Positions 4,451 to 23,000 of a stretch of DNA of 64,000 nt are shown here, piece by piece. The stretch covers positions 1,054,001-1,118,000 of the forward strand of contig NZ_CP087112.1 in assembly GCF_025643255.1 (NCBI RefSeq), given 5' to 3'. The notes under the pieces were generated by a model. That model ran no database searches. It was not told where the DNA came from and saw only the letters and a program-made list of their open reading frames with translations. How positions within the stretch are numbered: position 1 is the stretch's first letter; the number at the start of each line of letters is the position of its first letter. Source of the DNA: Halomonas sp. 7T (lineage in GTDB: Bacteria > Pseudomonadota > Gammaproteobacteria > Pseudomonadales > Halomonadaceae). The position numbers and the translations under genes are program-made.

Positions 4451-4528
4451 CCTCTTATGTCTGGGTGGCTAAGTTTAATATGCTCTTGGAACCACTCTAC
4501 AAAATATTTTCATATGGGAGTGGTGCGC

Positions 4529-5767
4529 ATGACTGTCACAATCACAAAACAGAGTGAAGCTTATTTAGATGCTCTGGCAAAAGCCCTTGAAATTCCTATC
4601 TCACGGTACGAGCAAGCGGAGAAAAGCTATAGGTCTCTTGGAGAGTGGTTTCATAGAGACGACTCTAAAGTGCGCCATTTTGACCCTGATGTATTTGTAC
4701 AGGGCTCCTTTCGGCTGGGTACAGTCATCAAGCCACAGTCCGCTGAAGAAGAATATGATGTCGACTGCGCCTGCAATTTGAATAACCTTGATAAATCGGA
4801 GCTGTCCCAAGCTGATCTGAAAGAACTCCTTGGCCATGAAATCAAGCTTTATCGCAAAAGCAAAGGCATCTCAAAGCAAGTACATGAAGGTCGTCGGTGT
4901 TGGCGGCTGGAATATGCAGACGGCGCGCAATTTCATATGGATATCGTTCCCTGTATTCCAAATGGGCGCGATCAGCGTCGCTTGCTCGAAGATAGGAGAC
5001 TGGACACTCAGTTTGCCGATACAGCGGTTGCGATTACCGATAACGAAGTGACCCCTCAGTACTATCAGATCACCAATGACTGGCCACGCTCCAATCCCAG
5101 GGGGTACTCAGAATGGTTTAAGTTTCGTATGGGCGATGTCTTCAAACGTCGGCGCACACAGGTACTCAACGAGATGCGATCAGGAGGAAATATCACAGCT
5201 AGTATTGAAGATATCCCCACCTATCGCGTCAGAACCCCTCTGCAATCAGCGATCATGATACTAAAGCGCCATAGAGATATCATGTTTACTCAGGATCCAA
5301 CGGATAAGCCAATTTCGATCATTATTTCCACTCTATCAGCACACGCTTATCAAGGTGAAGAGACAATTGGTTATGCGCTACTTTCGATCTTGAGCCGCAT
5401 GCAGGATGCGATTGTTTATGACGGTACGAAATATGTAATAAAGAATCCAACTGATGCCCTAGAAAACTTTGCAGACAAGTGGGAGGCTCATCCTGAGCGG
5501 GCGGACGCATTTTTTGATTGGCTTGAAAAGGCCCGTGAGGATTTTCGTGAGGTTGGACGCCTTGTCGAACACCGGCGGATATCTGGTGTTCTAGCTAATC
5601 GCATTGGGCGCGATCTGACTGATCAGGTAAGTAATAGTATCAATGCTTCGAGCTCTGTAGGGGGCGGCCTCCTGGGGGCTGCAACGGCTGCCTCGACGAT
5701 TTCAATCCCCAAAGTGTCTTTTTCAGACGAACCAAGGAACCCCAAAAAGCCGGATGGTTTCGCATGA
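4529..5767 (+). CDS. CBASS CD-NTase (cGAS/DncV-like cyclic oligonucleotide synthase)
   Basis: A 412-residue nucleotidyltransferase that would make a cyclic oligonucleotide alarm signal on phage infection. The catalytic core is clear: GS at residues 59-60 in VQGSFRLGT, metal-binding Asp77 and Asp79 in EYDVDC, and third Asp138 in FHMDIVPC. The ATG at 4529 is chosen because a GGGAG site lies 8 bases before it; the frame is open further upstream. The C-terminus is a flexible Pro/Lys-rich tail ending in Gly-Phe-Ala, fitting the type II CBASS scheme in which Cap2 charges and conjugates the enzyme's C-terminus. Its stop overlaps the next start (ATGA). The nucleotide product cannot be read from sequence; the SAVED effector downstream suggests a cyclic oligonucleotide that fits that domain. 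Confidence 0.9.
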   Translation: MTVTITKQSEAYLDALAKALEIPISRYEQAEKSYRSLGEWFHRDDSKVRHFDPDVFVQGSFRLGTVIKPQSAEEEYDVDCACNLNNLDKSELSQADLKELLGHEIKLYRKSKGISKQVHEGRRCWRLEYADGAQFHMDIVPCIPNGRDQRRLLEDRRLDTQFADTAVAITDNEVTPQYYQITNDWPRSNPRGYSEWFKFRMGDVFKRRRTQVLNEMRSGGNITASIEDIPTYRVRTPLQSAIMILKRHRDIMFTQDPTDKPISIIISTLSAHAYQGEETIGYALLSILSRMQDAIVYDGTKYVIKNPTDALENFADKWEAHPERADAFFDWLEKAREDFREVGRLVEHRRISGVLANRIGRDLTDQVSNSINASSSVGGGLLGAATAASTISIPKVSFSDEPRNPKKPDGFA

Positions 5768-7485
5768 TCTGGTGGATGACGAGTAACGCAAGGTTATCAT
5801 CTGAGAAGGCCAAAATCGCAGAGCTTGAGGCCACGGTTGATTGGCTACAGGTATTTAGATGGCGAATCAATGTAGATGCTGCCATGTGTGTTGACTTCCA
5901 AGTCATCAACGAAGATGAAGTGTTTATCTTTCAGATGGTCTATCCAAGCGTATTCCCCGATGCGCCACCGATGGTCTACACAAAAGACAGAACACAAATT
6001 TCCTTTCACCAGTACGGCGCAGATGGTGAAATGTGCCTGGAACATCGACCAGATAATTGGCAGCCGTCAGTCACAGGGGCTGACATGATAATTAGCTGTC
6101 AAAAGTTGTTGTTAGAAGAGCGCTCCGCGGAGGGCAAAGTGCTTTTCGCACACTCGGCTCACGTGGCGTCTTTAGGGCGTGATATGCGGTCAAAACACTT
6201 TCGGTTTTTAGTGACCGAGCACGATATAAAAATCCTCAATGCATTGAATGAGCGCGAGCCAACCTCTGTTTTTTTGAGTGAGCGGAGTTCATCGTCTGTA
6301 TATATATCAACGCTTTCTCATGTTGGTGCGAATGAAGAGTCGGCATTGCCTAGTGATTTCGTGTTCCCAGAAGGAAGAGCAAACGATGTGGGATTAGTAG
6401 TTCGGCTAGTCGGAGTCGGTAGTCCTAGTGCAAGTAATGCGGATGAGCTGCGAGCGCTTCTCGAAAGTTTTGAGCTAGTTGATCTGTGTGACTCGCTACT
6501 GAACAGCAACAGCTTTTCGCATCTGCTAATAGGTGACGAAGAGTCTTGGTCATTTTTCTGTATTTTTGGGGAGATTAATGATCGTAAAGTCATTAACTAT
6601 ACAACATTACGGCTTCCGAGCGAAAAACAACGTTTGCCAGACAGTAGCTCTTCTCTTTCTAGTAAGACAGTGGGCCTTGTTGGATGCGGTTCTATCGGAT
6701 CAAAAGTTGCTACTAGCCTTTGCCGGTCTGGTGTAGGCAGTTTCTTCTTTATTGATGAAGATATTTTTTTCCCCGGCAACGTCATTCGCAACGAACTAGA
6801 CCTTAACGATACAGGAGCTCACAAAGCCCACGCCTTGCGTGACCGACTACTCAGAATTAATCCACACATGGACATCAAGGCCTTTCGATTGTCCCTCGGT
6901 GGTCAAGAAAGCGCAAACTCGATGGCTGGAGCCCTCGAGTCACTTGGTGAATGCGATCTCCTGATAGATGCTACAGCTGAACCAAAGGCATTTAATATGA
7001 TCGCCTCTGTATCAACACGCCAAAAAAAACCAATGATTTGGGTGGAGGTATTTGCTGGCGGTATTGGGGGGATCGTTGCTCGCGCTCGACCAGATATAGA
7101 TCCCGTCCCATTGGTGGCACGATCTCAAATTGAGGCCTGGTGCCATGACCAAGATGTGGATTGGATCCGACCAGAAGAGGTAGGTCGTTACGATGGTCGA
7201 GATGGAGAAGGGGCTCCGTTAATTGCAGAAGATGCTGAAATTTCGATTATGGCAGGGCATGCGACTCGATTTGCATCCGATATTTTGGCTCGGCCAGAAG
7301 CCAGTGTTTTTCCTGTATCAGCCTATGTTGTCGGTTTCTCTTCGGAGTGGCTATTCAACGAACCTTTTGATACTCGCCCTATTGACCTCAGGCCCGATGG
7401 GGAATGGGGAGAGAGTGCTGATATGCTGGAGCCAGAAGCATTGGTTCAGCTCTTGAGAGAGCATCTTCCTTCTGAGGAGAGTTAG
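5764..7485 (+). CDS. cap2: CBASS Cap2, E2-E1 ubiquitin-transfer fusion
   Basis: A 573-residue bacterial E2-E1 fusion that attaches the C-terminus of the CD-NTase to target lysines, priming it. The N-terminal E2-like domain (residues about 1-130) carries the candidate catalytic Cys91 in GEMCLEHRP. The C-terminal ThiF/E1 adenylation domain (about 295-540) has the nucleotide loop GLVGCGSIGSKV (residues 304-315), acidic FIDEDIF around 331, and a candidate catalytic Cys460 in IEAWCHDQD. A linker of about 160 residues joins them. It overlaps the CD-NTase gene by four bases and abuts cap3, so translation is probably coupled. Cap2 defines this as a type II CBASS operon. Confidence 0.92.
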   Translation: MIWWMTSNARLSSEKAKIAELEATVDWLQVFRWRINVDAAMCVDFQVINEDEVFIFQMVYPSVFPDAPPMVYTKDRTQISFHQYGADGEMCLEHRPDNWQPSVTGADMIISCQKLLLEERSAEGKVLFAHSAHVASLGRDMRSKHFRFLVTEHDIKILNALNEREPTSVFLSERSSSSVYISTLSHVGANEESALPSDFVFPEGRANDVGLVVRLVGVGSPSASNADELRALLESFELVDLCDSLLNSNSFSHLLIGDEESWSFFCIFGEINDRKVINYTTLRLPSEKQRLPDSSSSLSSKTVGLVGCGSIGSKVATSLCRSGVGSFFFIDEDIFFPGNVIRNELDLNDTGAHKAHALRDRLLRINPHMDIKAFRLSLGGQESANSMAGALESLGECDLLIDATAEPKAFNMIASVSTRQKKPMIWVEVFAGGIGGIVARARPDIDPVPLVARSQIEAWCHDQDVDWIRPEEVGRYDGRDGEGAPLIAEDAEISIMAGHATRFASDILARPEASVFPVSAYVVGFSSEWLFNEPFDTRPIDLRPDGEWGESADMLEPEALVQLLREHLPSEES

Positions 7486-7947
7486 ATGCAAATGCTGCTA
7501 CCAAATGATGTTCTGCATAAAATGCGGCGCCATATGATACGCGCTGGTCGGCGTGAAATTGGCGGAATAATCATGGGCGAAGAGATTGGCGACCAGAAGT
7601 TTAGGATTGTAGATTTTTCTGTCGACTGCAAAAGTGGCTCCCATTCGAATTTTGTTCGTGATGCAGAACAGCATAACCAAGCTCTAGCGAAGTTCTTTGA
7701 AAAAACCGGGGCAGACTATCGCCGATACAACTATCTCGGTGAATGGCACACGCATCCAAGCTATGAAGTGCAGCCCAGTTTGCAGGATCTGAATGCGATG
7801 AAGGGTTTAGTCGACGGTTCAGGAGGTGTTGAGTTTGCAGTCCTTTTAATCGCTCGGTTGAAGTGGTGCTCGCAGCTTGAATTTAGTACAAGCCTTTTCG
7901 TTAGAGATCATGAGCCGACCCCGATAGGCTTGGTCCATGAGAAATGA
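7486..7947 (+). CDS. cap3: CBASS Cap3, JAB/JAMM deconjugating protease
   Basis: A 153-residue metalloprotease expected to remove the CD-NTase from its targets and so restrain the system. The JAMM zinc site is complete: Glu24 in RREIGG, and His88, His90, Ser98 and Asp101 spaced as HxH-x7-S-x2-D. It starts at the base after the cap2 stop codon, so expression is tied to cap2. Length is normal for a stand-alone JAB domain. An alternative general label would be Mov34/MPN/PAD-1 family protein; the context makes Cap3 the safe call. Confidence 0.93.
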   Translation: MQMLLPNDVLHKMRRHMIRAGRREIGGIIMGEEIGDQKFRIVDFSVDCKSGSHSNFVRDAEQHNQALAKFFEKTGADYRRYNYLGEWHTHPSYEVQPSLQDLNAMKGLVDGSGGVEFAVLLIARLKWCSQLEFSTSLFVRDHEPTPIGLVHEK

Positions 7948-7983
7948 ATAGCCAGATATTAATTGGTGGTGAGTGATATATAA

Positions 7984-9081
7984 ATGATCAAAAAGCTCTT
8001 TGAAAATTTTGTCCGCAAGGGAACAGACTGGCTATTTCGCGTTCATTCAATTGAAGCGATTATTTTAAAGTCGGCTTTTGGTGTGTTGTTAGCTGTTTTC
8101 GGTGTCCCACCATTTGTGGCATTTATCTTGCGTCTTATTCTGGGGGCTGTACCTGAAGAAATTTTGTCCGTACAAAAAACTTTCACTGATATCCACATCT
8201 TAATACTAGCAATCTGCTCTATTGCTATATTAATCGCGTTGGGCTTGATTGTTTATAGGGTTGTGAGCGATGCAAAAAACAACTTTAAGAAGAGAGTTGT
8301 AGTGGTTGAAGGTCGAGGACTTCGTGATGATGATGGTTCTCCACTTGATCAAGTAGTGAGAAAAAACACTAAAGGGCAAATTATCCCCGTTCTGCTTGAC
8401 TTGCGGAATCGTCTGGATGGAAAAGTCATCGAGCCCGAACGCGCACTAAGTGAGATTTATAGTGTGCACCGAACGATCCTTCAGCACAAAAAAAGTGCCG
8501 AAAGGAGCAGCCTGAAAGTCTTTTATGGTGGTCTAACATCTGTTCCTTATACTTTTCTAACAGGTGTGCTTTTGGACGATGAGGGAGTGATTGATCTATA
8601 TGACTGGGATCGAACGCGAGAAAACTGGCGTAAACTTGATGAAGAAGACGATGGAGCTGAATTTAGTGTAAATGGGGTCGAGAGGGTTATTCATGAAGAA
8701 GATGTGGTGATAGCACTTGCTTTCTCTTATGCAATTGACGACAAAAACTTAAAAAGTACATTTAATTATCCCACTGTGAGGCTTACTCTCGATGGCATGT
8801 CCTCAGACGCACATTGGTCTCGCGAAAAACAAAATCGCCTGGCACAGCAATTCTTTGAAGTTGTCAAGCAACTCAGTGAGCATGATGTAAAACGCATACA
8901 TTTAGTTCTGGCAGCGCCAAACAGCGTGGTTTTCACATTTGGGCGTCGTTACGACAAACGTAACCTACCTGAACTGATTGTCTATCAGTATGAGCGTGGC
9001 AAAAAGCCAGCCTATCCTTGGGGTGTTTTGATGCCTGTTGCTGGCGTTGATAATGCTCAGATATGTTATATAGATAGATAA
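7984..9081 (+). CDS. CBASS effector: two-TM SAVED protein (Cap14-like)
   Basis: A 365-residue membrane effector. Two hydrophobic segments (residues about 26-56 and 71-94) anchor it, followed by a cytoplasmic part. The C-terminal third matches the SAVED ligand-sensing fold: the strand HLVLAAPNSVVFTFGRR (306-322), then ELIVYQYERG and the closing PAYPWGVLMP. In known systems SAVED domains bind the cyclic oligonucleotide made by the CD-NTase, and the transmembrane part then damages the inner membrane so that the infected cell dies. It follows cap3 by 36 bases, with a GGTGGTGAG stretch upstream. The 2TM-SAVED layout is the one named Cap14. Ligand identity is not known. Confidence 0.85.
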   Translation: MIKKLFENFVRKGTDWLFRVHSIEAIILKSAFGVLLAVFGVPPFVAFILRLILGAVPEEILSVQKTFTDIHILILAICSIAILIALGLIVYRVVSDAKNNFKKRVVVVEGRGLRDDDGSPLDQVVRKNTKGQIIPVLLDLRNRLDGKVIEPERALSEIYSVHRTILQHKKSAERSSLKVFYGGLTSVPYTFLTGVLLDDEGVIDLYDWDRTRENWRKLDEEDDGAEFSVNGVERVIHEEDVVIALAFSYAIDDKNLKSTFNYPTVRLTLDGMSSDAHWSREKQNRLAQQFFEVVKQLSEHDVKRIHLVLAAPNSVVFTFGRRYDKRNLPELIVYQYERGKKPAYPWGVLMPVAGVDNAQICYIDR

Positions 9082-10993: not shown

Positions 10994-11872
10994 ATGCCTG
11001 CCCTTGTCCCAGAATTGGTGAATGCGGCAATTGATACCTCGGTATCTTCTAGTGATTTGTTGCGCCGGGCACTGGTCGTTGCACGGCGTTTAGCTGTGCC
11101 CGAACTGGTTGACTGGATCAGTAGTGAGTTGAACGGCTATTACTCTGAAGAGGTGCCTGACTATCGCCGTGTGAGGGGGCAGTTGATGGCCGAGAATCCA
11201 ATCAATGGCCCGATCCCTTTTTTTGCGTCGCCAGAAATGGCTGAGTTGTTGACAGACTTCAAGGTGCGGCAGCCAGTACCTGAACTGATGCAGCTTATGC
11301 AAAGCACAACTGGTATTTACAGCCACTTCCCGGCCGATATCGAGCAAGCGCTGATGCAGATGATGCGTAAGACAAACGGTATGGCCATGCGCCCGGTGCT
11401 CAGGTTTTCCTCCGTACAGGTGCAGGGTGTCATCGAGAATGTTCGGAACCGGGTTCTTGAGTGGGCGCTCGATCTGGAGACCAAAGGTGTGCTTGGGGAG
11501 GGCATGACATTTACGCAGCAGGAGAAAGAGACCGTGCAACAGCAGCATTATCACTTCGGGGACGTAAGCGGCTCCCAAATCCAAATCGGTTCGAATAGCA
11601 CCAACCAGACCCAGACAGATGGTGACATGGCAGCTCTCTCAGCATTGATTGAGTTACTGCGCGAAGCCATCCAGCAGGGACGCATGGAGGCTGATTTGCG
11701 CGAGGAGTTACAAGCAGAGCTGGCGACATTGCAGGCTCAGGCAGCGTCACCGAAGCCCAAGTGGGCCATCATCAAAGCGACCGCAGGAAGTATCAAAGCC
11801 GTATTGGAAAGCGCGTCAGGTGGTGTGCTTGCGATCCAAGCTCAGACGTATCTGAAGACACTGCTGGGATAG
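10994..11872 (+). CDS. AbiTii-domain protein with RHIM-like motif
   Basis: A 292-residue protein. Residues 1 to about 75 match the AbiTii domain (LLRRALVVARRLAVPELVDWISSELNGYY, then VPDYRRVRGQL), a family named for abortive phage infection. A central helical region leads to residues 186-206, HYHFGDVSGSQIQIGSNSTN, a Gly/Ser/Asn-rich stretch with an Ile-Gln-Ile-Gly core like that of RHIM amyloid motifs. The C-terminus (211-292) is helical and ends in an amphipathic segment. The start follows a strong GGAGGAAGG site. It is monocistronic and next to CBASS and restriction remnants, which supports a defence role. The mechanism is not known, and the RHIM comparison is by eye. Confidence 0.65.
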   Translation: MPALVPELVNAAIDTSVSSSDLLRRALVVARRLAVPELVDWISSELNGYYSEEVPDYRRVRGQLMAENPINGPIPFFASPEMAELLTDFKVRQPVPELMQLMQSTTGIYSHFPADIEQALMQMMRKTNGMAMRPVLRFSSVQVQGVIENVRNRVLEWALDLETKGVLGEGMTFTQQEKETVQQQHYHFGDVSGSQIQIGSNSTNQTQTDGDMAALSALIELLREAIQQGRMEADLREELQAELATLQAQAASPKPKWAIIKATAGSIKAVLESASGGVLAIQAQTYLKTLLG

Positions 11873-12295: not shown

Positions 12296-13444
12296 ATGAA
12301 GTTGGAAATAATCACTGATGATGAGCAGGGCGCGCATATCTGCGGGGAATACTGGAGGCAGTCTGAAGACGGCGAGTTTGTCTTCAAAATTAGCGAAATA
12401 GCGACCGCTAATTCAATGAAAACACACGAGGTCAGTAAGTTCGTCGAACAGCATGCTTTCGTATGGCTGGAAGATATCTGCTGTGGTCGTTGCAGACAGC
12501 CATACCGCTTTGGTACTCGCAGCCAGTATCAAGACCGCCGATGGCTTCGGGAGCGGGTCTGTAGTGCATGCTTAAAAGCCGAACGACAAGCCATTGCTGA
12601 CGAAAAGCAAGAGTTGCTTCTGAAAATGCGGCAGACAGCTAAAAGCAACGTACCAGACCTAGCAACGCTAGCCCTGAAAAGCAAGATCTATCTACTAGCG
12701 GCGATTCAGGCGTTAGGCGATGAAGAACTTGCTACTATAGAACCACTTAACGATTATCCCACTTGCACACTGTCGCCGGATCCTGTCTATGATCATAAGG
12801 TGCTTCAGCATTTGATTGATCACAATCTATTGTTGATTTCCCTAGATACACGTCTTGAGGTGATCGAGCTTCATGAAGATGGTCAGTTGAGTATCGACCT
12901 TGGAGCATGCGCATTTAACCTTCCCTTTGATGCCGACCAAGTCACTGCACTTATCAATAAGTTTTTTGATGAGGAAATCGCACACAGCGTCAAGCAATCT
13001 CCCGAATTTAATGCACTATGTAAGGAAGCCCAACTGAACGAGTGCATTGGTTTCTTGAAGGTTATGCTTGAAGAGCATCAGCTGTACTTGTCGCCGGGGG
13101 AGAAAAGCCGCCAGATGCTCAGCAGGTGCCTAGAGCATTTTAGTGTAGCCCAGGTCTATAACTTCATTTGGCGGGCCGCCAAGGACGCCGCTGCCTATTA
13201 TATGCGTAGCTCTATCAGCAAACGGCAGGCAGCTAACTCGGTTGTTGGGAACATTTCACGGAGTATGGAGCGTGCCCTGGCCAATGAATGGGAAGTGAAG
13301 CCATTTGGTAGGAACTATAACCTTCCGCAGTCCTCATTGAGCCGTGTCATCTTCAATATGATTCTGGGCACTGACGACGGCGGTTTTACTTACCGATTAG
13401 CCGACGTTTTTGAGAAGAGTGACCTGTACGAACAGAGCGTTTGA
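12296..13444 (+). CDS. Unknown protein with putative zinc ribbon
   Basis: A 382-residue protein I cannot assign to a family. Residues 62-92 contain two Cys pairs (CGRC at 63-66 and CSAC at 89-92) spaced like a zinc ribbon, after an N-terminal region (residues 25-60) that reads like a winged-helix or HTH (FKISEIATANSMKTHEVSKFV). The rest is mostly helical, without signal peptide or membrane segment; residues 295-345 are basic and Ser-rich. It is divergent from an XRE regulator within the defence cargo of the island. A defence or DNA-binding role is possible but is inference from location. Confidence 0.6.
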   Translation: MKLEIITDDEQGAHICGEYWRQSEDGEFVFKISEIATANSMKTHEVSKFVEQHAFVWLEDICCGRCRQPYRFGTRSQYQDRRWLRERVCSACLKAERQAIADEKQELLLKMRQTAKSNVPDLATLALKSKIYLLAAIQALGDEELATIEPLNDYPTCTLSPDPVYDHKVLQHLIDHNLLLISLDTRLEVIELHEDGQLSIDLGACAFNLPFDADQVTALINKFFDEEIAHSVKQSPEFNALCKEAQLNECIGFLKVMLEEHQLYLSPGEKSRQMLSRCLEHFSVAQVYNFIWRAAKDAAAYYMRSSISKRQAANSVVGNISRSMERALANEWEVKPFGRNYNLPQSSLSRVIFNMILGTDDGGFTYRLADVFEKSDLYEQSV

Positions 13445-13539: not shown

Positions 13540-15450
13540 CTATTTTTTTCTAGCTGTTTTTCTTTTTCGCATCGGCTTCTTTCCCATTCCACGTAGAGCC
13601 GAGAAATCACCGCTTTCTACTTCAACGATTAGCGCTTTCAGGCCATCAGTGAGGGGCTGCATAAACTGCCCGTATCGCATCCGCTTCTCGCTGATGGCTT
13701 CAAGCTGAGACTCCCAATGTGCGGTCATATCAGGAACAACCATTCGTTTAGGCAGACTGTTCACAAGATGCTTTCCTGCGTCTGTCGAGTGTATTTCCTT
13801 GCCTTTCTTTGTCAGAAACTGCCGTTTGAACAATAACTCGATGATCCCTGCACGGGTGGCTTCCGTGCCGAGCCCGTCCGTATCCCTGAGCACTTTTTTA
13901 ATTTCAGGGTCTGATACGTACCTCGCTATTCCCGTCATGGCGGAGAGTAATGTTGCATCTGTGAAGCGTTTCGGGGGGCTGGTTTGTTTCTCGTCCATTT
14001 TGCCGTCGATGCAGGTAACAGGATCTCCAGTCTTAACGTTGGGAAGAGCCACTGAGGAAAATTCAGCGTCTTGCTTTGGGGTCTTTTGAGGAGGCAGCAG
14101 CGCCTTCCAGCCGTTAGAAATAACTGACTTCTGTTTGGCAACGAACAATCCACCTTCCACCTCGCTGTCGATTTGGTGCTCTGCATACTCAAACGGCGGG
14201 TAAAATTGCATCAGGTACTGGCGGGCAACTAGCTCGTAGATATTCTTCTCATCCTGAGACAGGCGATCAGCTGGAACTGCCCTGGATGTTGGTATAATTG
14301 CGTGGTGCGCGCCTACCTTAGCATCGTTCCACGCCTTACTCTTTAGGTCGAGGTCAGCCTTTTGAACGCTATCAGAAAGCGCCGCCGATGTTTTGGCTAT
14401 CGACTGAGCCACTGTTTGGCGTTCAGTGTAATGGCCTTTGGGTAGATACCGACAGTCTGACCGCGGGTAGGTGATCAGCTTATGGCGTTCATATAACTGT
14501 TGGCATATGTCCAGAGTCTTCTGGGCGTTTAGATTGAAACGCTTTGATGCATCAATTTGCAGTGATGAAAGACTATAGGGCAGGGGGGCAGGCTGTTTTT
14601 TCTTGTCGCGTTTGACTGCGATGACGTTGCCTGAATGTCCGACTACCTTTTGAAGAACGACCTCTGCAAGCTTTCGTGAAAGCACACGGCCTTCCTCGTC
14701 CATGTAAGGCTCGCAAGCAGTACTAGGCTTCCACTTAGCTGTAAAAGACTCACCAGCCACTGTCTGAAGCGTTATGAAGACCTCATAAAATGGCTTGGTT
14801 ATAAAGTTTTCGATTTCTTGGTCTCGGTGAACGACCAATCCCAATACAGGCGTCTGTACTCGGCCAATCGACAAAACGCCGTTGTACCCAGCGCTTTGGC
14901 CAAGCAGGGTGCAAAGGCGGGTCATATTAATACCATAGAGCCAATCGGCCCTTGCCCTTGCTAGGGCGGATGTTGCTAACGGTATGAAGTCAGTATTCTT
15001 GCGAAGATCATTCAATGCCTTCTTGATAGCACCAGGGTTCATATCGTTGACGAGACAGCGCAATGTGGCTTCGCGTTTTGCCTTATTCACACCTGAATAA
15101 TTGATCACTTCATCGACCAGGATCTGACCGACGCGATCAGGGTCACCCATATTGACCAATTGGTCAGCTTCTTTGATCAGTTTTTTGACAGCATTAAACT
15201 GTGAGCGGGTTTGGCTTTTGATTTGATGTTTCCACTCGACTGGGATAATTGGCAGGTGCTCTTTTTTCCACTTTTTGTACTCAGGGTCATAAGCATCTGG
15301 CTCAGCCTGCTCCAATAAGTGACCAATACACCAGGTTACAACATCACCATTAGCCACCCTGATAAACCCATCACCTTTCTGGTGGGGTTTGGGAAGCACA
15401 TCTGCAACTGCGCGTCCGACACTCGGCTTTTCGGCAATGTATAGAATCAA
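13540..15450 (-). CDS. topB: Island-borne DNA topoisomerase III
   Basis: A 636-residue type IA topoisomerase, close to the usual length of TopB. The TOPRIM domain (1-150) has Glu7 in AEKPS and Asp103/Asp105 in GDPDR. Position 107, a metal-binding Glu in the family, is Val (codon GTC). The catalytic tyrosine is Tyr328 in LITYPRSDCRYLP. The start is TTG, overlapping the TGA of the preceding small gene, so it is translationally coupled as the last gene of the recombinase operon. The C-terminus is basic (KPMRKRKTARKK) and lacks zinc ribbons. It probably processes recombination or replication intermediates of the island and may replace the host topB that the island breaks at 22685. Whether Val107 allows full activity is unknown. 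Confidence 0.9.
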   Translation of the reverse strand: MILYIAEKPSVGRAVADVLPKPHQKGDGFIRVANGDVVTWCIGHLLEQAEPDAYDPEYKKWKKEHLPIIPVEWKHQIKSQTRSQFNAVKKLIKEADQLVNMGDPDRVGQILVDEVINYSGVNKAKREATLRCLVNDMNPGAIKKALNDLRKNTDFIPLATSALARARADWLYGINMTRLCTLLGQSAGYNGVLSIGRVQTPVLGLVVHRDQEIENFITKPFYEVFITLQTVAGESFTAKWKPSTACEPYMDEEGRVLSRKLAEVVLQKVVGHSGNVIAVKRDKKKQPAPLPYSLSSLQIDASKRFNLNAQKTLDICQQLYERHKLITYPRSDCRYLPKGHYTERQTVAQSIAKTSAALSDSVQKADLDLKSKAWNDAKVGAHHAIIPTSRAVPADRLSQDEKNIYELVARQYLMQFYPPFEYAEHQIDSEVEGGLFVAKQKSVISNGWKALLPPQKTPKQDAEFSSVALPNVKTGDPVTCIDGKMDEKQTSPPKRFTDATLLSAMTGIARYVSDPEIKKVLRDTDGLGTEATRAGIIELLFKRQFLTKKGKEIHSTDAGKHLVNSLPKRMVVPDMTAHWESQLEAISEKRMRYGQFMQPLTDGLKALIVEVESGDFSALRGMGKKPMRKRKTARKK

Positions 15451-15923
15451 CTCTGTTTACCTCGCTCAAATTCAACGACTTTCACTTTGTTCAGCTCAGC
15501 CTGAAGGGCTTCTATTTCCTCAAGTGCCTCATAAAGAGAGAATTCTAAATTGGCATTTCGTGCGATAACTTGGTCACAGAATTTTTTGATGTCGTCTCGT
15601 TGTGATCTGTAACGTTCTTTAAGCTCACGTTCTTTATCTCTTTGGGCTCTAAGCCTATCTACAGAAACTTTAACTTTAGTTGAGGAAGAAGCCGACATTC
15701 TTGATTTGTGTTTATCAATTTCACGCCGTGCTCTTTCAACAAAGTCATCGTAATAGTATATTCCACCAGAGCTAAGGCCAGCTTCCTTGTTTATTCGACT
15801 TAAATTCAATTTTCCGTCATTGGGAGTTCTTTCAGGATTGCCATCGATTAAGCGCTGAAGAGCATCTTCAAGCCTTTGCTTGGTTATTTCACCCCGCTCA
15901 GAAGGTGTGTTTTGGATGCCCAC
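15447..15923 (-). CDS. Small HTH/coiled-coil accessory protein of the recombinase module (TnpC/GmtX-like)
   Basis: A 158-residue protein. The N-terminal half has an HTH-like stretch (LNLSRINKEAGLSSGGIYYY) resembling the small accessory proteins of Tn554-type modules. Residues about 85-150 are a charged coiled coil (KERELKERYRSQRDDIKKF, then LYEALEEIEALQAELNKVK). The start is GTG at 15923 behind GAGGAA, two bases after the stop of the third recombinase, and it overlaps topB by four bases. Position and build match the small third protein of Gamma-Mobile-Trio islands (GmtX), but this was not checked by search. Likely a DNA-binding helper that directs the recombinases to the island ends. Confidence 0.65.
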   Translation of the reverse strand: MGIQNTPSERGEITKQRLEDALQRLIDGNPERTPNDGKLNLSRINKEAGLSSGGIYYYDDFVERARREIDKHKSRMSASSSTKVKVSVDRLRAQRDKERELKERYRSQRDDIKKFCDQVIARNANLEFSLYEALEEIEALQAELNKVKVVEFERGKQS

Positions 15924-15925
15924 GT

Positions 15926-17803
15926 TTAAAATTCCTCTTTGCTAAATGCTACAAAATCGAGGTTGTGTTCTGAAAGAACTTTCTCAATAGAGCGAATCTC
16001 ATAATATATTTTTGACATTATGTTGGGTATATCTATGCCGCTCGAATAAATTTCATTATATTTTATAATTAATTTATCTCTTACAGTAACCAATGACTTG
16101 GCTTTTTCAACCGTAACCACCTTATATTGACAAACGGCCATATCACAAATTCTATCACAATCTGGATTCGTGCAATATCCACCAGGATGCTCGATGATAG
16201 ATAAGCGTCCTTCCTCAACTTGCTTGCGTATCTCTTCTTTACTTAGATATATAGTGGAGTCTCCTTCCGCTCGAAGGTTTTTAATCCTCTTCCCTTCTGG
16301 GCCTGCTAACGTTTCAGCTTCATTGTAAAGGTGATAGAAAATATCAGTCATATAATTTTTGTTTTCACCTGCTATTTCGTCTTGAAGCTCGTTGTCAATC
16401 ATCATGTCAAGATAAGAAGCAATGTTAGCTTGGTTTGCATACCAGGAAGTCATCGCTATATTCATATGCTTAAATTGATATTTAATATCTAGTAAAGATG
16501 AAAGTTTGTTGCGTACCAAGTAAACAGCAAATGTGCGACGGAAAGCATGAGGGTGAATATGCAGTCTCTCACCAATTTTAAGCTCGCCTTTCCTGGATGG
16601 GTTTAAAGTATTAAATTCATAAACGTCATCTTTTGTTGCAAGACAATCTAGTGAGCGTATGAAGGAATTAAGCGAATGAAATATTGACTGTCTTCCAGCA
16701 TTAGGCTTCTTTGCGGTTGAGTGTGGTAGTGTAACGAATAAACTATCCGCATCTTTTAGAAATTTATTGCGCTCATCTACGTGCTTTATATCCGACGCCT
16801 GATTTTTCCATCCTTCGCGTGCAAAGCTAAAAGCATCCCATAGTAATTCAATAGCTTTCTTAACTGCAGGTATGGTTACCCATGAGATGGTTCGTTCGAC
16901 ACCACCAAGGTTGGGTTTAGTGTGAATTCCATTTAGCACAGACACCGTCATACCAGCATATTTTTTCTCTTGATATGATTCCAAGTTAAATGATTTTATT
17001 TCAGCGTCTCTACAGCCCGTAAATGCAGCGATAACAATGTAGCAGGCTCCCCTTAGTTTTGAGAGCCAATGACCACTATAATCAAATTCAATATCTATGG
17101 CTGACAGATCAAAATTTAAATTTTTAAGCGCATGTTTTCTGGATGATATGCTTGAAGTATATCGACCTGTTAGTCTTTCATACTCAGTAATGAAGTCGGC
17201 GTAAGCAGAAGATATTTCATGCCTATAGGGGTAATACACTTCAACTAAGTTTAGAGACTCTCTATAGTAAATGGTGGCGATACGCTCTGGCAAACATATT
17301 GCCTGAGAAATATTATCACCACTACTTGACAAATATCTTGCTAAGTTATCAGCGCTACCTATATTTCGGATTATTAATTTTTCAGCATATAGATGAGAAA
17401 TGAAAATTAAATTATTTTTCCATGTTTTATATTTTAGTTTTCTATTCTTTGCTTGATCTATAACTTTTCGATAGTTTTTGTCTTCATCAATGAATTCATA
17501 TGAATAGCCATTGCATGCTGTTATACATTTTTCAAAAATAACTGCCCCTTCAATGATGTTTTTAATAGCGCTTTTTTTAGATTTGAGGGTTTTGTTTGTT
17601 ATGACCTTATATACAAGATGTTTAGTGGCTTTTTTGAATTCTCCTGACAGTCTGGAAAAAGAAACATCGAAGTTAAGAGACCACAAAATCCATTTGTCTG
17701 ACGAGTAGTAACTATATGGGTTTCCATCAGAATCAATAGATATGACTATATCATTAATAGACGTCGTCAATTCCGAATCTTTAGCCCTTGTTGTTTCATT
17801 CAT
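15926..17803 (-). CDS. Tyrosine recombinase, third of the module (GmtZ/TnpB-like)
   Basis: A 625-residue site-specific recombinase, much longer than phage integrases. The catalytic domain is in the middle third: first Arg in FTGCRDAEIKSF, HxxR in HPHAFRRTFAVYLVR, then His and nucleophile Tyr in FKHMNIAMTSWYAN. A Cys-rich segment follows (CTNPDCDRICDMAVC, about residues 535-550), likely metal-binding, then a helical tail. The start overlaps the previous stop as TAATG, showing coupled translation. DNA is AT-rich against the flanking chromosome. With its two sister recombinases it should cut and join the island ends. It is probably the GmtZ-like member, by order and size. Confidence 0.8.
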   Translation of the reverse strand: MNETTRAKDSELTTSINDIVISIDSDGNPYSYYSSDKWILWSLNFDVSFSRLSGEFKKATKHLVYKVITNKTLKSKKSAIKNIIEGAVIFEKCITACNGYSYEFIDEDKNYRKVIDQAKNRKLKYKTWKNNLIFISHLYAEKLIIRNIGSADNLARYLSSSGDNISQAICLPERIATIYYRESLNLVEVYYPYRHEISSAYADFITEYERLTGRYTSSISSRKHALKNLNFDLSAIDIEFDYSGHWLSKLRGACYIVIAAFTGCRDAEIKSFNLESYQEKKYAGMTVSVLNGIHTKPNLGGVERTISWVTIPAVKKAIELLWDAFSFAREGWKNQASDIKHVDERNKFLKDADSLFVTLPHSTAKKPNAGRQSIFHSLNSFIRSLDCLATKDDVYEFNTLNPSRKGELKIGERLHIHPHAFRRTFAVYLVRNKLSSLLDIKYQFKHMNIAMTSWYANQANIASYLDMMIDNELQDEIAGENKNYMTDIFYHLYNEAETLAGPEGKRIKNLRAEGDSTIYLSKEEIRKQVEEGRLSIIEHPGGYCTNPDCDRICDMAVCQYKVVTVEKAKSLVTVRDKLIIKYNEIYSSGIDIPNIMSKIYYEIRSIEKVLSEHNLDFVAFSKEEF

Positions 17804-19587
17804 TAGTAAATTTCCAGCATCAATTCAATGTCACTAGTATCTTGCCAAAGCGGGTGTGCTGTATCTAGGTATTTTTGATAAGCTTCATGATAAACAGTTG
17901 CATGTTTCGTTTTAATGCGTTCAATAATAACCTGAACGGTGCTGTGGACTTTATTTAGCAAATTTGATGGCTTTGAATTGATAGATGGAGTTGTGAGAGA
18001 CTCCAATATAACATCACCAAAAGACAGTAATAACCAGATATCTTCCACTTCTGCCACTACTGCATGATGCATACAGCCGAAGCACTCTAAAAACTTATGG
18101 CAAGCAACAAGATCAGATTCTTTGGCAAGCCCTTCTTTAATTAATGCGTTTTTTATCTTAATTGATTTTTCTCCAAAGGCACCACCACATCTTAAGCCAT
18201 TTGATAGTTTTTTATACTTAGTGTTTGTGGCGCTTTCTTTGATTGGGTCATTGAAAATAAATGCACTTTCTTTTATTGCGTTATCTAATGGTGACCCTAG
18301 TGCAGTTTGCTCACGGATATATAGTGCCGAGGCTAGTGAGAGCTCAGTTGTTACTGGATCTCCATTAGCATAATGCTTGGATGCAGTTGCTACAGAATTG
18401 TTTAGCCCTTGAGCAACCATGAATACACTCTCAGTCGCTCTCATAATAAGAGAGGCCTTAGTCTTTCTAAACCGCTGGCTACTAAAGGCAGGAATGCCGA
18501 AGTTGATGATGTATTTGTTTAGTTTACTAGCGTTGCTAGTGGTCATTTTTGATGGCTTATTGCGAGAGAAATTTGGAAATATATACCCATCACTGTGAGA
18601 GTTTAGCTTTTTACTAATTTTAAGCCACCTATTAAAAAAAGTTTTTCCTTTTTTCGTAAAGCCGACTTCTATTTCGTTTACCCTTCCTGATTGCCTTCCT
18701 TTAATCGTCCTAAGCTTATAGGATCTGCGATTAATGTCTTGAAAAGGCTCTTCATCTATATCTGATATTTTTAATCCCAAGAGAGGGTTGGAGTTTGCTC
18801 CAGTGTGTAAGCAGGTGATGAAGTATGCAACTCTAACTAGATCGGTTTTCCATGTGCTATCACTGTTATTAGAAGTTGTATATCGTATAGAAACTCCGTT
18901 GCTCTCAAATTTAAAAGTGCCATCTTTATTTTTTGCATTATAGAGTGGGAAAATTAGCGGTGCAGTATCGTTGTCGATATGCTTTGCGTAATCGTCAAAT
19001 ATTGTATAAAGAGCTGATGCTATTTTATTAAGCTCATCGTCTGTGTATGGCTTTGTAGGCTCACTGTCTGATGGAAAAGTTATGAATATATTTTTACATT
19101 GCTCGTATAGCTCTATGTCTAGCTCTTTTAGCAACGATTTAATAGAGTTTTGGCGAGAAGATAAGCTTTTTCCTTTTATGCCTTTTTCATATAGTTTTGC
19201 TAGCTCATTAACGTACATGGATACGGAGTCATGGCAAAAAGTGTCGTTAATTCCTTCCGAGTCCATTTTTCTAATAAATGATACTGTTTCTCTAAATATA
19301 TTAATCTTGGTTCTGTCAGTTTTATCCATGGCGTGGATTGCATTACAGACTTGTATTGCCAGCTCTCTGCGATTGGCATCGACAAGATCAGCCTGAGTCT
19401 TAGGCTTGTTTGTACGTTTTTCTTCCATTGAAAGAATTGGGCATCCTCTATAAAGAAGGCGCTCAAAATTGGCAGTGCCGTGCCCATCAGTGATAAATCT
19501 ATCCTTCAGGTTTATGCTGACTACATTTTCTAAATTTGTTTTTTGTGCTGTCGATGTTTTTCTTTTTTTTTCTTTTAAAAAAGCCAT
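17803..19587 (-). CDS. Tyrosine-recombinase-like protein with degenerate active site, second of the module
   Basis: A 594-residue protein with the recombinase fold order but changed catalytic residues. The first Arg motif reads HTGANSNPLLGLKISDI (Asn where Arg is usual). The HxxR box reads SQRFRKTKASLIMR (Gln for His). The second His box reads LNNSVATASKHYAN (Asn for His), with Tyr kept. The C-terminal part has a Cys/His cluster (CHKFLECFGCMHH) like that of its neighbour. It may be a structural subunit in a mixed tetramer. Start and stop both overlap neighbours as TAATG. Lys/Arg-rich N-terminal tail (KEKKRKTSTAQKT). Confidence 0.7.
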   Translation of the reverse strand: MAFLKEKKRKTSTAQKTNLENVVSINLKDRFITDGHGTANFERLLYRGCPILSMEEKRTNKPKTQADLVDANRRELAIQVCNAIHAMDKTDRTKINIFRETVSFIRKMDSEGINDTFCHDSVSMYVNELAKLYEKGIKGKSLSSRQNSIKSLLKELDIELYEQCKNIFITFPSDSEPTKPYTDDELNKIASALYTIFDDYAKHIDNDTAPLIFPLYNAKNKDGTFKFESNGVSIRYTTSNNSDSTWKTDLVRVAYFITCLHTGANSNPLLGLKISDIDEEPFQDINRRSYKLRTIKGRQSGRVNEIEVGFTKKGKTFFNRWLKISKKLNSHSDGYIFPNFSRNKPSKMTTSNASKLNKYIINFGIPAFSSQRFRKTKASLIMRATESVFMVAQGLNNSVATASKHYANGDPVTTELSLASALYIREQTALGSPLDNAIKESAFIFNDPIKESATNTKYKKLSNGLRCGGAFGEKSIKIKNALIKEGLAKESDLVACHKFLECFGCMHHAVVAEVEDIWLLLSFGDVILESLTTPSINSKPSNLLNKVHSTVQVIIERIKTKHATVYHEAYQKYLDTAHPLWQDTSDIELMLEIY

Positions 19588-20401
19588 TAATTTTCACCAC
19601 TTTCAAGAATGATGTTTGTTGCCAGCTCATGAATTTCATTAGCTGTAACTACTTCCTCAGAAAGCTTGAGATAGCCCAGTAATGTGGCTCTGCTTTTGTG
19701 CCCCATCACAGACTGGAGATAGTCGAGGGCTTTCCCTTCTTTTATTCCTGAATTCAATAATTCTTTTAATCTTTCAACAGCATAGGTCGAGCGTAAATTA
19801 TGAAACTTATGGCTAAAATTTGGAAGCTCGCTTCTAATGGCATTTCTGAGCTCACCCCAGCGTGCATCAATACTTTTAGATGAATATGGCTTGCCTAACT
19901 GGTTTAAGAGCAGCGGGGGACTGTGTTTGTCTTCAGGATGGCTTTCCTCATATAGTTTCCGGCGCTGTATGTATCGAGCTGAGTTAGTATAGTCATAGAG
20001 TTGCTGCATCAATTCAGAAGGGATTTCAGCTATTCTTACCGTCCCATTTTTAGTTGCCACACCTGCCCTTGGGTCAAGTGCTAAACCATCAGCGTTGATG
20101 AGGTATTTCTTTCTCAGCTGTTCTGAGCTGGGCTTGTAAATTGCGTTTAACCGAAGACTTATAATTTCTGATCTTCTCAATCCACAGTATCGACTTAGCT
20201 CGATTGCAATTTGGAACTCCTGAGATAACGCAATGCTCTTTGTGTTATTGCTTCTATTCGAAACTCCAGTTTGAAGCTCCTTGTAGTATTTTTTAGCGAC
20301 GCGCCATTCCTGATGATTCATTGGAACCCCCTCTGTCAGCCTAGTTGTCCGGTTGGCGATATCACCTAAACTCAGTCCAGAGGGAGCGGTATGGAATTCA
20401 T

Positions 20402-20911
20402 GTGCCACGTTATTCTGAAGAGCGTAAAGCCGCCATCCTGAAAAAGTTATTGCCGCCCCACAATCGCAGTGTGGCGTCGGTAGCAACGGAAGAAGGCATC
20501 TCCAACGCGACGCTGTATAGTTGGTTAAAACAGTGTCGAGAAAAAGGAGTGCCTGTGCCGGGTTACACCCAAGGCGACAACGAATGGTCACCTGACGCCA
20601 AGCTAGCCGTTGTCATCGAAACCGCGACGATGTCAGAAACAGAGCTTGGCGCTTACTGTCGTGAAAAAGGCCTTTATCCCGAGCAAATCCAGCAATGGAA
20701 AGCCGCTTGTCTCGAAGGAGCTGGTCGGCAAGAAGAGCAGGCAAAAGCAGCGCAGAAACAGCGCAAAGAAGACCGAAAGACCATCAAGCAGCTCAAAGCG
20801 GAAGTACGGCGCAAAGACAAGGTGCTGGCAGAAACAACGTCGTTGCTGGTGCTTTCAAAAAAGCTCGAAGCCTTGTACGGCGAGGATCCGGACAGCGGCG
20901 AGGACGACTAA
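20402..20911 (+). CDS. IS3-family transposase OrfA
   Basis: About 169 residues if started at GTG 20402 (homology with the OrfA at 3792-4301 begins there: VPRYSEERKAAILKK against NVRYPAERKEAILKK). A HTH (VASVATEEGISNATLYSWLKQ), a second HTH-like module (ETELGAYCREKGLYPEQIQQW) and a basic coiled coil (KQLKAEVRRKDKVLAETTS) follow. An A-AAA-AAG slippery heptamer lies at 20857-20863 in the codons for Ser-Lys-Lys. The upstream extension to 20345 falls partly in the IS end and is unlikely to be translated. Confidence 0.85.
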   Translation: MPRYSEERKAAILKKLLPPHNRSVASVATEEGISNATLYSWLKQCREKGVPVPGYTQGDNEWSPDAKLAVVIETATMSETELGAYCREKGLYPEQIQQWKAACLEGAGRQEEQAKAAQKQRKEDRKTIKQLKAEVRRKDKVLAETTSLLVLSKKLEALYGEDPDSGEDD

Positions 20912-21972
20912 CGCCTCTAAAGGAACGTGCAAGGCTCATCGCGCTATTTGACGAAGCGGTTATGGGTGGCGCGTCCCGTTATCAAGCGGCTGCCGTGATC
21001 GGCATAAGCGAACGCACACTGAAGCGGTGGCGATCTGAGCGCGGCGCTATTGTCGAGGATCAGCGTCCACATGCAGGGCAACACAGGCAGCCGCATCAGC
21101 TGACGCATGAGGAAGAGCAAGCCATTTTGAACACGTGCCATCGCCCCGAGTATCAGAGCTTGCCGCCGTCTCAAATCGTTCCTTTATTGGCCGACGAAGG
21201 CGTCTATCTGGCCTCCGAATCGTCGTTTTATCGGGTCTTGAAAAAGCATCATCAGCAGCACCATCGTGGCCGTATGAAACCACGTCGTTCAGTCCCCGAG
21301 CCGACTAGCTTTACGGCTACAGGGCCAAACCAGGTCTGGAGCTGGGACATCAGTTATTGTGCCTCCGTTGTGCGAGGTCAGCACTGGTATCTTTACCTGA
21401 TCATGGATATCTACAGCCGCAAAATCATTGCTTGGGAAGTCCACGACACGGAATCGGGCGAGTTGGCTAAACAGCTTTTGGAACGTGCCTTGCTGCGAGA
21501 AGGTTGCTGGCATCAGCCGCCAGTACTGCACTCTGATAACGGAGCACCGATGACCTCCTATACGCTCAAAGCGAGGCTAACAGAGCTGGGCATGTTGATG
21601 TCTTACAGTCGGCCGAGAGTAAGCAATGATAACCCTTACTCGGAAGCGCTGTTCCGTACCGTCAAATACTGTCCAGCGTGGCCCACCAAGGGCTTCGCAT
21701 CGCTGGGCGCGGTACGAGAATGGATGCTAGCGTTCGAGCGGGCTTACAACGAACAGCACCTGCACAGTGGCATCCAGTATGTCACGCCAGCGGACCGTCA
21801 TCGCGGCGTAGACCAAGAGCGCCTGGAACGCCGGAACGCGGTATACCAACGTGCGAAGCAGCGACATCCGCAACGCTGGTCGGGCCACACTCGAAACTGG
21901 GAAGTCACCGGCCCAGTCTCGCTTAACCCGGGAAAAATGCACGAAATCGAGCGTAATCAACAGGCTGCTTAA
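20857..21972 (+). CDS. IS3-family transposase OrfB (by -1 frameshift from OrfA)
   Basis: The DDE transposase frame entered by slippage at 20857-20863. The HTH (SRYQAAAVIGISERTLKRW) precedes HTH_21 and the rve core: Asp in VWSWDISYCASV, Asp in HSDNGAPM, Glu in DNPYSEALFRTVKY. It is intact to the stop at 21972, 29 bp before the right inverted repeat. An independent start at ATG 20961 is possible, giving OrfB alone. Confidence 0.87.
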   Translation, partial: KKARSLVRRGSGQRRGRLTPLKERARLIALFDEAVMGGASRYQAAAVIGISERTLKRWRSERGAIVEDQRPHAGQHRQPHQLTHEEEQAILNTCHRPEYQSLPPSQIVPLLADEGVYLASESSFYRVLKKHHQQHHRGRMKPRRSVPEPTSFTATGPNQVWSWDISYCASVVRGQHWYLYLIMDIYSRKIIAWEVHDTESGELAKQLLERALLREGCWHQPPVLHSDNGAPMTSYTLKARLTELGMLMSYSRPRVSNDNPYSEALFRTVKYCPAWPTKGFASLGAVREWMLAFERAYNEQHLHSGIQYVTPADRHRGVDQERLERRNAVYQRAKQRHPQRWSGHTRNWEVTGPVSLNPGKMHEIERNQQAA

Positions 21973-22604
21973 GCGCAGCCATTTGGACAACTGGGTTGAA
22001 AATCACCGGGAAGCAGTTTGCGTGATAGGCCATAATGGCTCGTATCATTTGGTAGCTTTAATCTTAGATCAGTGGTGTCCACATGAATCAATGTTTTTCT
22101 CATATACTCATGTGACCCACTCGTATTGACTTTGACTATCTCGTACTTAAACGGTGGGTGTTCAAATGGGTGATTTCTAGCCAGATAAAATTTATAAAAC
22201 TTGATCACCACGCCCATATAGCTATTGGCAGTAGATCTAGCTATATCTCCATTTTTATATGCTTCACGAAGGTGCTTCTTGAACCCATAGGTAGGCCTTT
22301 TTCTAAGGGCGGCAGGCATAGTGTCCCAAGCAATGCCTATATCTTCAATGAAGGTAAAGTAGTGAAGCAATGCTTGTGCTTGAGTGTTAACCGCTTTCTT
22401 ACGCAAATTGGCTTTTAAATGTATCAGCCAAATATTCGCGACTCTAATGCTGCTACCGTCTTCCTTGTATAAGAGAGGAAGTTTGCCTAGAGAATTGCCA
22501 GATCCTTCAAAGCATATTGATAGCTCTCCGGTAGACCTATTAATCTCTCGTTTAATTGACTGATCTACAACAAAGTCAGGAACTTCCCATAGCACTATGC
22601 CCAT

Positions 22605-22685
22605 GCAAGTCTCCATGCCGTAATTTCACGATTTCTTAGATTTTATACGTAACAATCGTATTCAATAGAAAAATCGTAACAGTGC
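22605..22685. other. Island end / attachment site inside host topB
   Basis: Between the recombinase start and the host topB codons lies an 80-bp non-coding end. It contains CGTAACA twice (22648-22654 and 22675-22681), AATCGTA twice (22654-22660 and 22672-22678), and an inverted pair ACGATTT/AAATCGT (22628-22634 and 22671-22677). Such repeats suit arm or core binding by the tyrosine recombinases. Host-like topB sequence starts near 22685 at the CTCGATCCGGGTC that encodes DPDR on the other strand. The other island end is off the window. Confidence 0.6.
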
Positions 22686-23000
22686 TCGATCCGGGTCGCC
22701 CGCATGCACCACGCTGGTGGCCTGCTTCATTAGCTTACGAATTACTGCGAGCTGGCCGCGGGCTTTAGAGCGCGGGGCCAGTTGCCACGTGCCGGGCACA
22801 ATGGGCAGGCGGTTCAGCCGCCACTGTTTATCAGCGGGGTCGTAGGCTTCTGGAGGGGCTTGTTCCAGCAGGTGGCCCAGGCACCAGGTCACGGTGGTAT
22901 CGCCGCAGGTGATAGCCCCTTCCTGACGTTTGCCGGCGCTAGGCAGAGCCTCGGCGATGGCGCGGGCGAGGCTGGGTTTTTCGGCGATAATCAAGCGCAT
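22684..23000 (-). pseudogene. topB: Host topB, truncated by island insertion
   Basis: The N-terminal 105 codons of a chromosomal DNA topoisomerase III: LIIAEKPSLARAIAEALP at the start and VVHAGDPDR at the break. After Arg105 the frame reads eight island-derived codons (ALLRFFY, stop at 22662). The family continues Glu-Gly-Gln here, so the break falls exactly at the third acidic TOPRIM residue. The fragment lacks the catalytic tyrosine and cannot be active. It is about 55 percent identical by eye to the start of the island TopB, which shows two separate topB lineages. The rest of the host gene should lie beyond the far end of the island, left of this window. Confidence 0.88.

Follow-up and report, generated by a model that had tools for sequence, protein, structure and literature searches.

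A tyrosine-recombinase island splits topB in Halomonas sp. 7T and carries a second, complete topB

The window analyzed here is a 64,000-nucleotide stretch of the Halomonas sp. 7T genome (bases 1,054,001-1,118,000 of a single contig of 3.63 Mb), and our subject is an island that interrupts the host gene topB and carries a complete topB of its own. The 5' part of the host gene lies on the minus strand at 22686..23000. It comprises codons 1-105, matches the Toprim domain (PF01751, 1.7e-10) and ends with GDPDR, after which the frame runs into island-derived ALLRFFY and a stop. The 3' part lies left of the window, 25 kb away, on the minus strand within an open reading frame (ORF) of locus L004 (4009-5697; genome 1,050,008-1,051,696); the host portion itself spans about 1,050,008-1,051,640, and host sequence resumes with DEGQLLVQE. 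An earlier, sequence-only reading had placed the cut directly after GDPDR, at residue 105 and at the island junction, and had proposed looking to the left for the remainder of the gene; junction and remainder are both where it expected them. It had also allowed for a second intact host topB elsewhere. None was found when the whole genome was searched with PF01131, which matched topA, the island topB and the 3' part of the host topB and nothing else.

The island is 25,055 bp long, with a G+C content of 46.2% versus 55.0% in the right flank. Its recombinase operon has the order intA-tfp-intB-srap, with topB as fifth gene, and runs on the minus strand in the same direction as the host topB, with intA at the right junction. 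intA is in two pieces: a 5' piece at 22032..22616, which aligns with the intact intA of the E. coli island L005 (71%), and a 3' piece with the catalytic domain at 19587..20321 (PF00589, 4.5e-08; 68% to E. coli L005). Between them, on the plus strand at 20322..22031, sits an insertion sequence with ORFs at 20345-20911 and 20695-21972, IS3-like by eye. The Tfp-like recombinase (594 aa, 17803..19587) is degenerate, lacking the first arginine and the histidine of HxxR, whereas the IntB-like recombinase (625 aa, 15926..17803; PF00589, 3.9e-06) keeps R265, H419, R422, H446 and Y455. The same catalytic R, H, R, H and Y are kept in IntA, as read from the intact copy of the E. coli relative. The small protein of 158 aa encoded at 15447..15923 is classed as Srap/GinD-like by its position and its similarity to the counterpart in related elements, and its stop codon is overlapped by the TTG start of the island topB (13540..15450) as TTGA. 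Since intA is split, the window's copy of the island is probably no longer mobile on its own.

The paired attachment sites, which the first reading had suggested seeking, are present at both ends, each with a 6-bp spacer and an arm. The site beside intA, attL, occupies 22673..22690 on the minus strand and consists of the spacer ATCGAG (22685-22690) and the element arm C, CACTGTTACGAT (22673-22684). We compared 10 left ends and 12 right ends from the islands described below, the Pseudoalteromonas right end being displayed with a shift of six bases. They follow the order host, 6-bp spacer and C at the intA end, and C', spacer and host at the far end. Arm C has the consensus [TC]ACTGTTAC[GA]AT, and C and C', each about 11 bp long, are imperfect inverted repeats. 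In the window genome the spacers are ATCGAG on the intA side and ACGACG on the far side. In E. coli the intA-side spacer, ATCGTG, equals that of the intact topB site, and the far spacer, ATGATG, differs from it. Far spacers of the forms ATGATG and ACGACG, found at the right ends of E. coli L005, P. anthophila L062, the window's L004 and H. ventosae L053, encode Asp-Asp-Glu in frame, which no host topB seen here matches.

Do related islands share this insertion point? Among the scored candidates, 95 homologues of the 625-aa recombinase reach E <= 0.001. A pairing of IntB with TopB clusters by the length of the longest contig (12 of 52 listed, from 95 hits) was judged too weak for use. A search of E. 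coli genomes, a search of one genome per GTDB species (9 loci) and whole-genome searches yielded a set of 15 islands: those of the window, genome G088 and Halomonas ventosae; of E. coli BR1220, HH35 and PO06021; of three Pantoea; and of Marinobacterium lutimaris, Tatumella, Pseudoalteromonas, two Photobacterium and G488, a member of the Photobacterium family. In all 15, topB lies directly behind srap. The contig stops before the junction in three (L011, L014, L015), and the remaining 12 are without exception inserted at the same topB codon, with the first 105-106 codons of the host topB directly upstream of intA on the same strand. The 3' part of the host gene was found in 14 of the 15 genomes, on a separate contig in two of them; the exception is G088, in which topA and the island topB remain and the host 3' part is absent. 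The suggestion that the island targets topB at GDPDRE, with a topB aboard and a host remnant beyond its left end, is thus supported within this lineage; more distant elements of the same architecture sit at other loci, without topB.

The E. coli carriers, detected by a window gene at 68% DNA identity, number 3 in 5,426 genomes. When the same genomes were surveyed with a 161-base query spanning the insertion site, 5,375 matched; 5,372 of these were intact, with at least 80% of the query covered, and the three carriers were split at the site (PO06021 is listed with 54% coverage). In two of the three E. coli islands, those of HH35 (L006) and PO06021 (L016), ISEc52 lies between intB and srap and parts topB from the upstream recombinases. 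H. ventosae and P. anthophila possess an additional topoisomerase of another type, with the motif TDADREG. In Photobacterium iliopiscarium, the stretch from the island topB to the 3' part of the host gene contains a 3' remnant of a second island-type topB (L061 8395-9102; residues 396-629, 63% identical), which we take to have been left by an older island inserted at this position.

The island TopB, of 636 aa, is complete and distant from the host protein and closes the recombinase operon, as had been noticed from the sequence alone. It matches TopB models over almost the entire length of the models (NF005829, 857 bits with a cut-off of 597; TIGR01056, 756 bits with a cut-off of 515.75), and its identity to the host TopB of the same genome is 47.6% in the N part and 44.1% in the C part. 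Its alignment to E. coli topoisomerase III runs the whole length and places valine at E107. All 15 island copies keep the full length, the DPD of the Toprim motif and the tyrosine motif YPRSD. All 15 also read GDPDRV where hosts read DPDRE, so that the third acidic Toprim residue is absent, and the changed codon sits at the crossover. Among the 120 best-listed homologues the residue at this position is V in 117, E in one and G in one, and one sequence is truncated. For the seven pairs whose dS is usable, the dN/dS of the island topB comes to 0.036-0.060, which is no higher than in the host pairs used for comparison. It is the lowest among the island genes in six of these pairs and is undercut by srap in the seventh, in a comparison of non-independent pairs in which IntA is represented by its N part only. 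Because dS is unequal between genes of one island pair, the islands may be mosaic.

A tree of TopB C-terminal parts (65 rows) contains a 51-row clade (100/100) made up of 50 proteins with the valine, hereafter V-type, and P0134, which has E. Twelve host TopB rows fall outside this clade, grouped by host, in a tree for which the program warned of long branches. P0134 is the TopB of Nitrincola lacisaponensis. Its identity to the island TopB is 62% in the N part, which reads DPDRE, and 83% in the C part, whereas in 12 other V-type proteins compared the N part is at most 3.4 points below the C part; on account of this mismatch we rejected a point reversion from V to E. P0134 is likelier to be a chimera of a host-like N part and an island-like C part, possibly a case of domestication by recombination. 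Within the Photobacterium family (296 genomes), the DNA motif of the V type and a strong IntB match are confined to the same three genomes.

Why would an element carry the gene that it breaks? We consider it highly probable that the island is a trio-recombinase integrative element that uses the DNA of the TopB catalytic motif (GDPDR-EG) as its attachment site and carries a replacement topB. The host topB promoter would read through intA-tfp-intB-srap-topB, so that the replacement would be made from the promoter of the broken gene and the cell would stay TopB-positive. Valine in place of glutamate at the crossover codon would keep the element out of its own copy. As the codons of the site have little synonymous freedom, escape from recognition may need an amino-acid change. 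Compensation for the broken gene would agree with purifying selection on the carried topB, with its solitary copy in genome G158 and with the cca and umuDC elements described next. In E. coli K-12, topB and cca are dispensable under laboratory conditions.

Breaking and replacing a gene recurs within this recombinase group, with cca and umuDC as further targets. The Pseudoalteromonas family has 16 matching genomes; G254 and eight others were read, all but the seven weakest (<175 bits), and of the eight elements read three carry cca and one umuDC. The cca elements (G916, G1034, G885), with IntB at 33-35% identity, carry an entire cca immediately after srap, and a 5' fragment of the host cca stands immediately ahead of intA; the cca 3' part is at the opposite end of the element in G916 and G1034. 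The host gene is cut before the Y of (E/D)EYALARTE, and the three carried copies read EEWALARTE. This site pattern occurs at 127 places in 123 of 196 genomes of the family, with TGG only in the three elements and TAY elsewhere. In G1111, the host umuD and a 5' fragment of umuC precede intA and a complete umuDC follows srap; at the cut the carried UmuC reads SNNDNC, whereas all five other UmuCs read SNNDGC, including one that is 95% identical and has no such recombinases within 29 kb. A split recA with a full recA was found in 2 of 58 genomes searched, G468 (L230-L231) and G498 (L232-L233), the carried recA following the host 5' fragment. The G468 carried RecA has F for Y at the cut, a variant also seen in 2 of 30 controls. 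These two recA elements have different cut codons and recombinases unlike those of the topB lineage. In G916 (L182 3-5059), the cca 3' part precedes a second HlyD/ABC-peptidase set that resembles the set within the element in a tandem-like arrangement, and it may therefore belong to an older element.

Among described elements, SEs appear to be the closest kind. They have the order intA-tfp-intB-srap, RHRY in both integrases and not in Tfp, and inverted repeats of 13-19 bp (PMC10214605). The topB island resembles them, and in particular SE-6283/Tn6283, in gene order, in the RHRY pattern, in imperfect inverted arms around a 6-bp spacer and in a host spacer on the intA side, which in E. coli is that of the empty site. 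The two spacers are identical to each other in P. endophytica, Pantoea WMus005, Tatumella and both Photobacterium, which is compatible with the SE spacer rule and uninformative. The island differs in its target, in having the replacement gene directly behind srap and in its shorter repeats. Moreover, its proteins are only 22-25% identical to those of a putative SE of V. alfacsensis; IntA (1e-30) and IntB (1e-22 to 1e-31) match, Tfp does so by a C-terminal piece only (1e-8 to 1e-10) and Srap gives no match to that element at 1e-3. According to the SE report, SEs do not regenerate an empty site (PMC10214605), and the topB island may behave likewise. Tn6283 itself inserts in bcp and carries a Bcp homologue (54.8%), for which its authors suggest compensation (PMC5991714).

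Other known elements show parts of the same design. The recA mobile elements (RMEs) of V. cholerae and V. parahaemolyticus interrupt recA at one constant position and bring along a divergent recA of full length (PMC4405046, PMC4334540); according to their authors the element's own copy spares the host, and excision restores recA (PMC4405046). The likeness lies in a housekeeping gene split at a fixed site with a complete divergent copy aboard. The topB island is nevertheless not an RME, as its target and cargo gene is topB and not recA, and in the recA elements of G468 and G498 the copy stands at the start of the element, beside the host 5' fragment. GInts combine three recombinase-fold proteins and a small protein with imperfect repeats, 6-nt staggered cuts and cargo for defence or fitness (PMC5385486), and share with the island these proteins, site-specificity, imperfect repeats and cargo of this kind. 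We rejected this assignment, since in GInts GinC adjoins GinD, whereas here the degenerate protein is second, not third. The GInt authors consider the target genes to be mostly not fully inactivated and report reverse-transcription PCR in which transcription entered from outside and probably ran into the cargo, and a term search of the available text of that paper gave no mention of topoisomerase (PMC5385486). RIT elements have three recombinases, all with catalytic residues, and 34-bp terminal repeats (PMC10214605); a RIT element was likewise rejected, given the degenerate second protein and short arms here. Tn552-II, of the Tn554 type, is site-specific, has a donor-derived spacer and carries the target-gene-like tgl, for which rescue has been suggested (PMC12486829); it differs from the island in being staphylococcal and in having no Tfp counterpart. 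With the recA elements, Tn6283 in bcp and Tn552-II as precedents, the novelty here lies in the altered codon and in the targeting of topB, cca and umuDC: no paper on these genes as such targets, or on a change at the cut, was found in the open PMC literature.

Do trio elements more widely use conserved housekeeping codons and pay with a copy that the altered crossover makes immune? If so, the host would be locked in and its native gene would sometimes be permanently replaced; in TopB, the alteration would cost a residue of the catalytic motif. We regard this wider reading as evenly poised. Several results weigh against the explanation of the topB island given above. Four of the eight Alteromonadales-type elements have no replacement gene in the stretch read, one of these stretches, G925, being an 11-kb contig. 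Within 15 distant Vibrionaceae-type and 6 plasmid loci, a search for target copies (ORFs of at least 50 aa in ~16-22 kb per locus) found no pair of an intA-side fragment and a complete gene. The host umuC 3' part of G1111 was not found within 39 kb. The tgl of Tn552-II retains a copy of the att site, the opposite of the topB island, according to the report on that element (PMC12486829). A DNA test for clustered change found no raised nucleotide change around the umuC cut, and the G498 carried RecA has no amino-acid change at its cut; with no consistent change in the recA elements, alteration at the cut is not universal. Finally, 10 of 250 genomes in the window's family have the V motif, and 7 of these 10 have no IntB, so V-type TopB does not depend on the element.

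In the distant loci, the neighbours upstream of intA resemble, with gene names assigned by eye, 3' ends of genes of the rraB, ycgN and gor kinds, a comM-like gene in two pieces and further fragments. Replacement as a rule for the entire recombinase group was accordingly rejected, because other members carry no target copy. On the IncX4 plasmid pEC111 (L070), a trio-recombinase element with AbiH and PIN cargo has a piece of a DUF2806 gene on either side and no copy of that gene aboard.

The umuC and G498 results also speak for another account of the crossover change, namely that it reflects drift of the lineage, or selection to prevent the copy from recombining homologously with the host fragments, rather than immunity. 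The probable P0134 chimera adds to this account, suggesting as it does that copy and host gene may recombine. It must, however, explain why otherwise constant residues are altered exactly at the cut: in topB in 15 of 15 copies, in cca in 3 of 3 copies, with Y at all 124 other places, and in umuC in one copy, where 5 of 5 others have G. We think it a possible account, though a somewhat doubtful one.

What are the V-type genes that stand without a recombinase? In the seven genomes the V-type gene is the sole TopB, save for one divergent extra in G065. In G158, of the window's genus, the V-type TopB is 94.7% identical to that of the window island, and its gene adjoins aarF, which is the native locus and the position of the 5' end of the window's host topB; no recombinase and no piece of a host topB was found in the 19 kb read around it. 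In G203, G046 and G031 one or more of the genes that flank topB at the native locus are near the V-type topB, and in G065, G042 and G018 none of the genes flanking topB in the window was found near it. These seven genomes, three of them without such a neighbour, could represent the original state, in which V-type TopB is native to some Halomonadaceae and relatives and was merely captured by the island. We find this unlikely. V-type proteins form one clade apart from host TopBs, in which the seven rows without IntB are nested among island rows, and the G158 gene, nearly the same as the window's copy, occupies the native locus in a genus that otherwise has differing TopBs. The preferred interpretation of a solitary V-type topB is that it is a domesticated island copy.

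Might the island TopB instead be catalytically dead through loss of the third acidic residue, and serve as a decoy or regulator? V107 does align with E107 of E. coli topoisomerase III, and an acidic triad figures in the title of Zhu and Tse-Dinh 2000, cited in PMC6101483. The same source, however, names the first Glu and the two Asp as the strictly conserved acids (PMC6101483), and the retained motifs and length in 15 of 15 copies and a dN/dS no higher than in the host pairs compared also make a dead protein very improbable. Equally remote is the view that topB is ordinary equipment for circularization or replication, as on many integrative and conjugative elements (ICEs), with the identity of the target a coincidence: ICEs and islands with topB that sit elsewhere do turn up in the literature listing, but target and carried gene agree for topB, cca and umuC and in the published recA and bcp cases, and in more distant trio elements the four recombination genes occur but topB does not.

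A replacement topB carried by an element that breaks topB would turn scattered remarks on recA, bcp and tgl into a testable pattern, in which some elements carry the gene that they target, in a version that differs at the cut. It offers a route for horizontal replacement of housekeeping genes without loss of function, and would account for odd additional copies of topB, cca and umuDC. Self-immunity by recoding becomes experimentally addressable. In E. coli and other Gammaproteobacteria, topB is marked as a landing site for defence cargo.

The window's island also has cargo genes. On the plus strand are an ORF of 382 aa (12296..13444) with no family match in Pfam or PADLOC, a 292-aa protein with an AbiTii domain (10994..11872; PF18864 1.4e-43, PADLOC AbiTii 4.8e-46) and a CBASS-like set of cyclase, E1-E2, JAB and 2TM-SAVED effector (4457..9081; PADLOC matches). 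The left part of the island holds a candidate defence gene, PDC-S51 (L004 6197-7402; 354 bits), and the window ORF at 1081-2277 is a weak relative of it.

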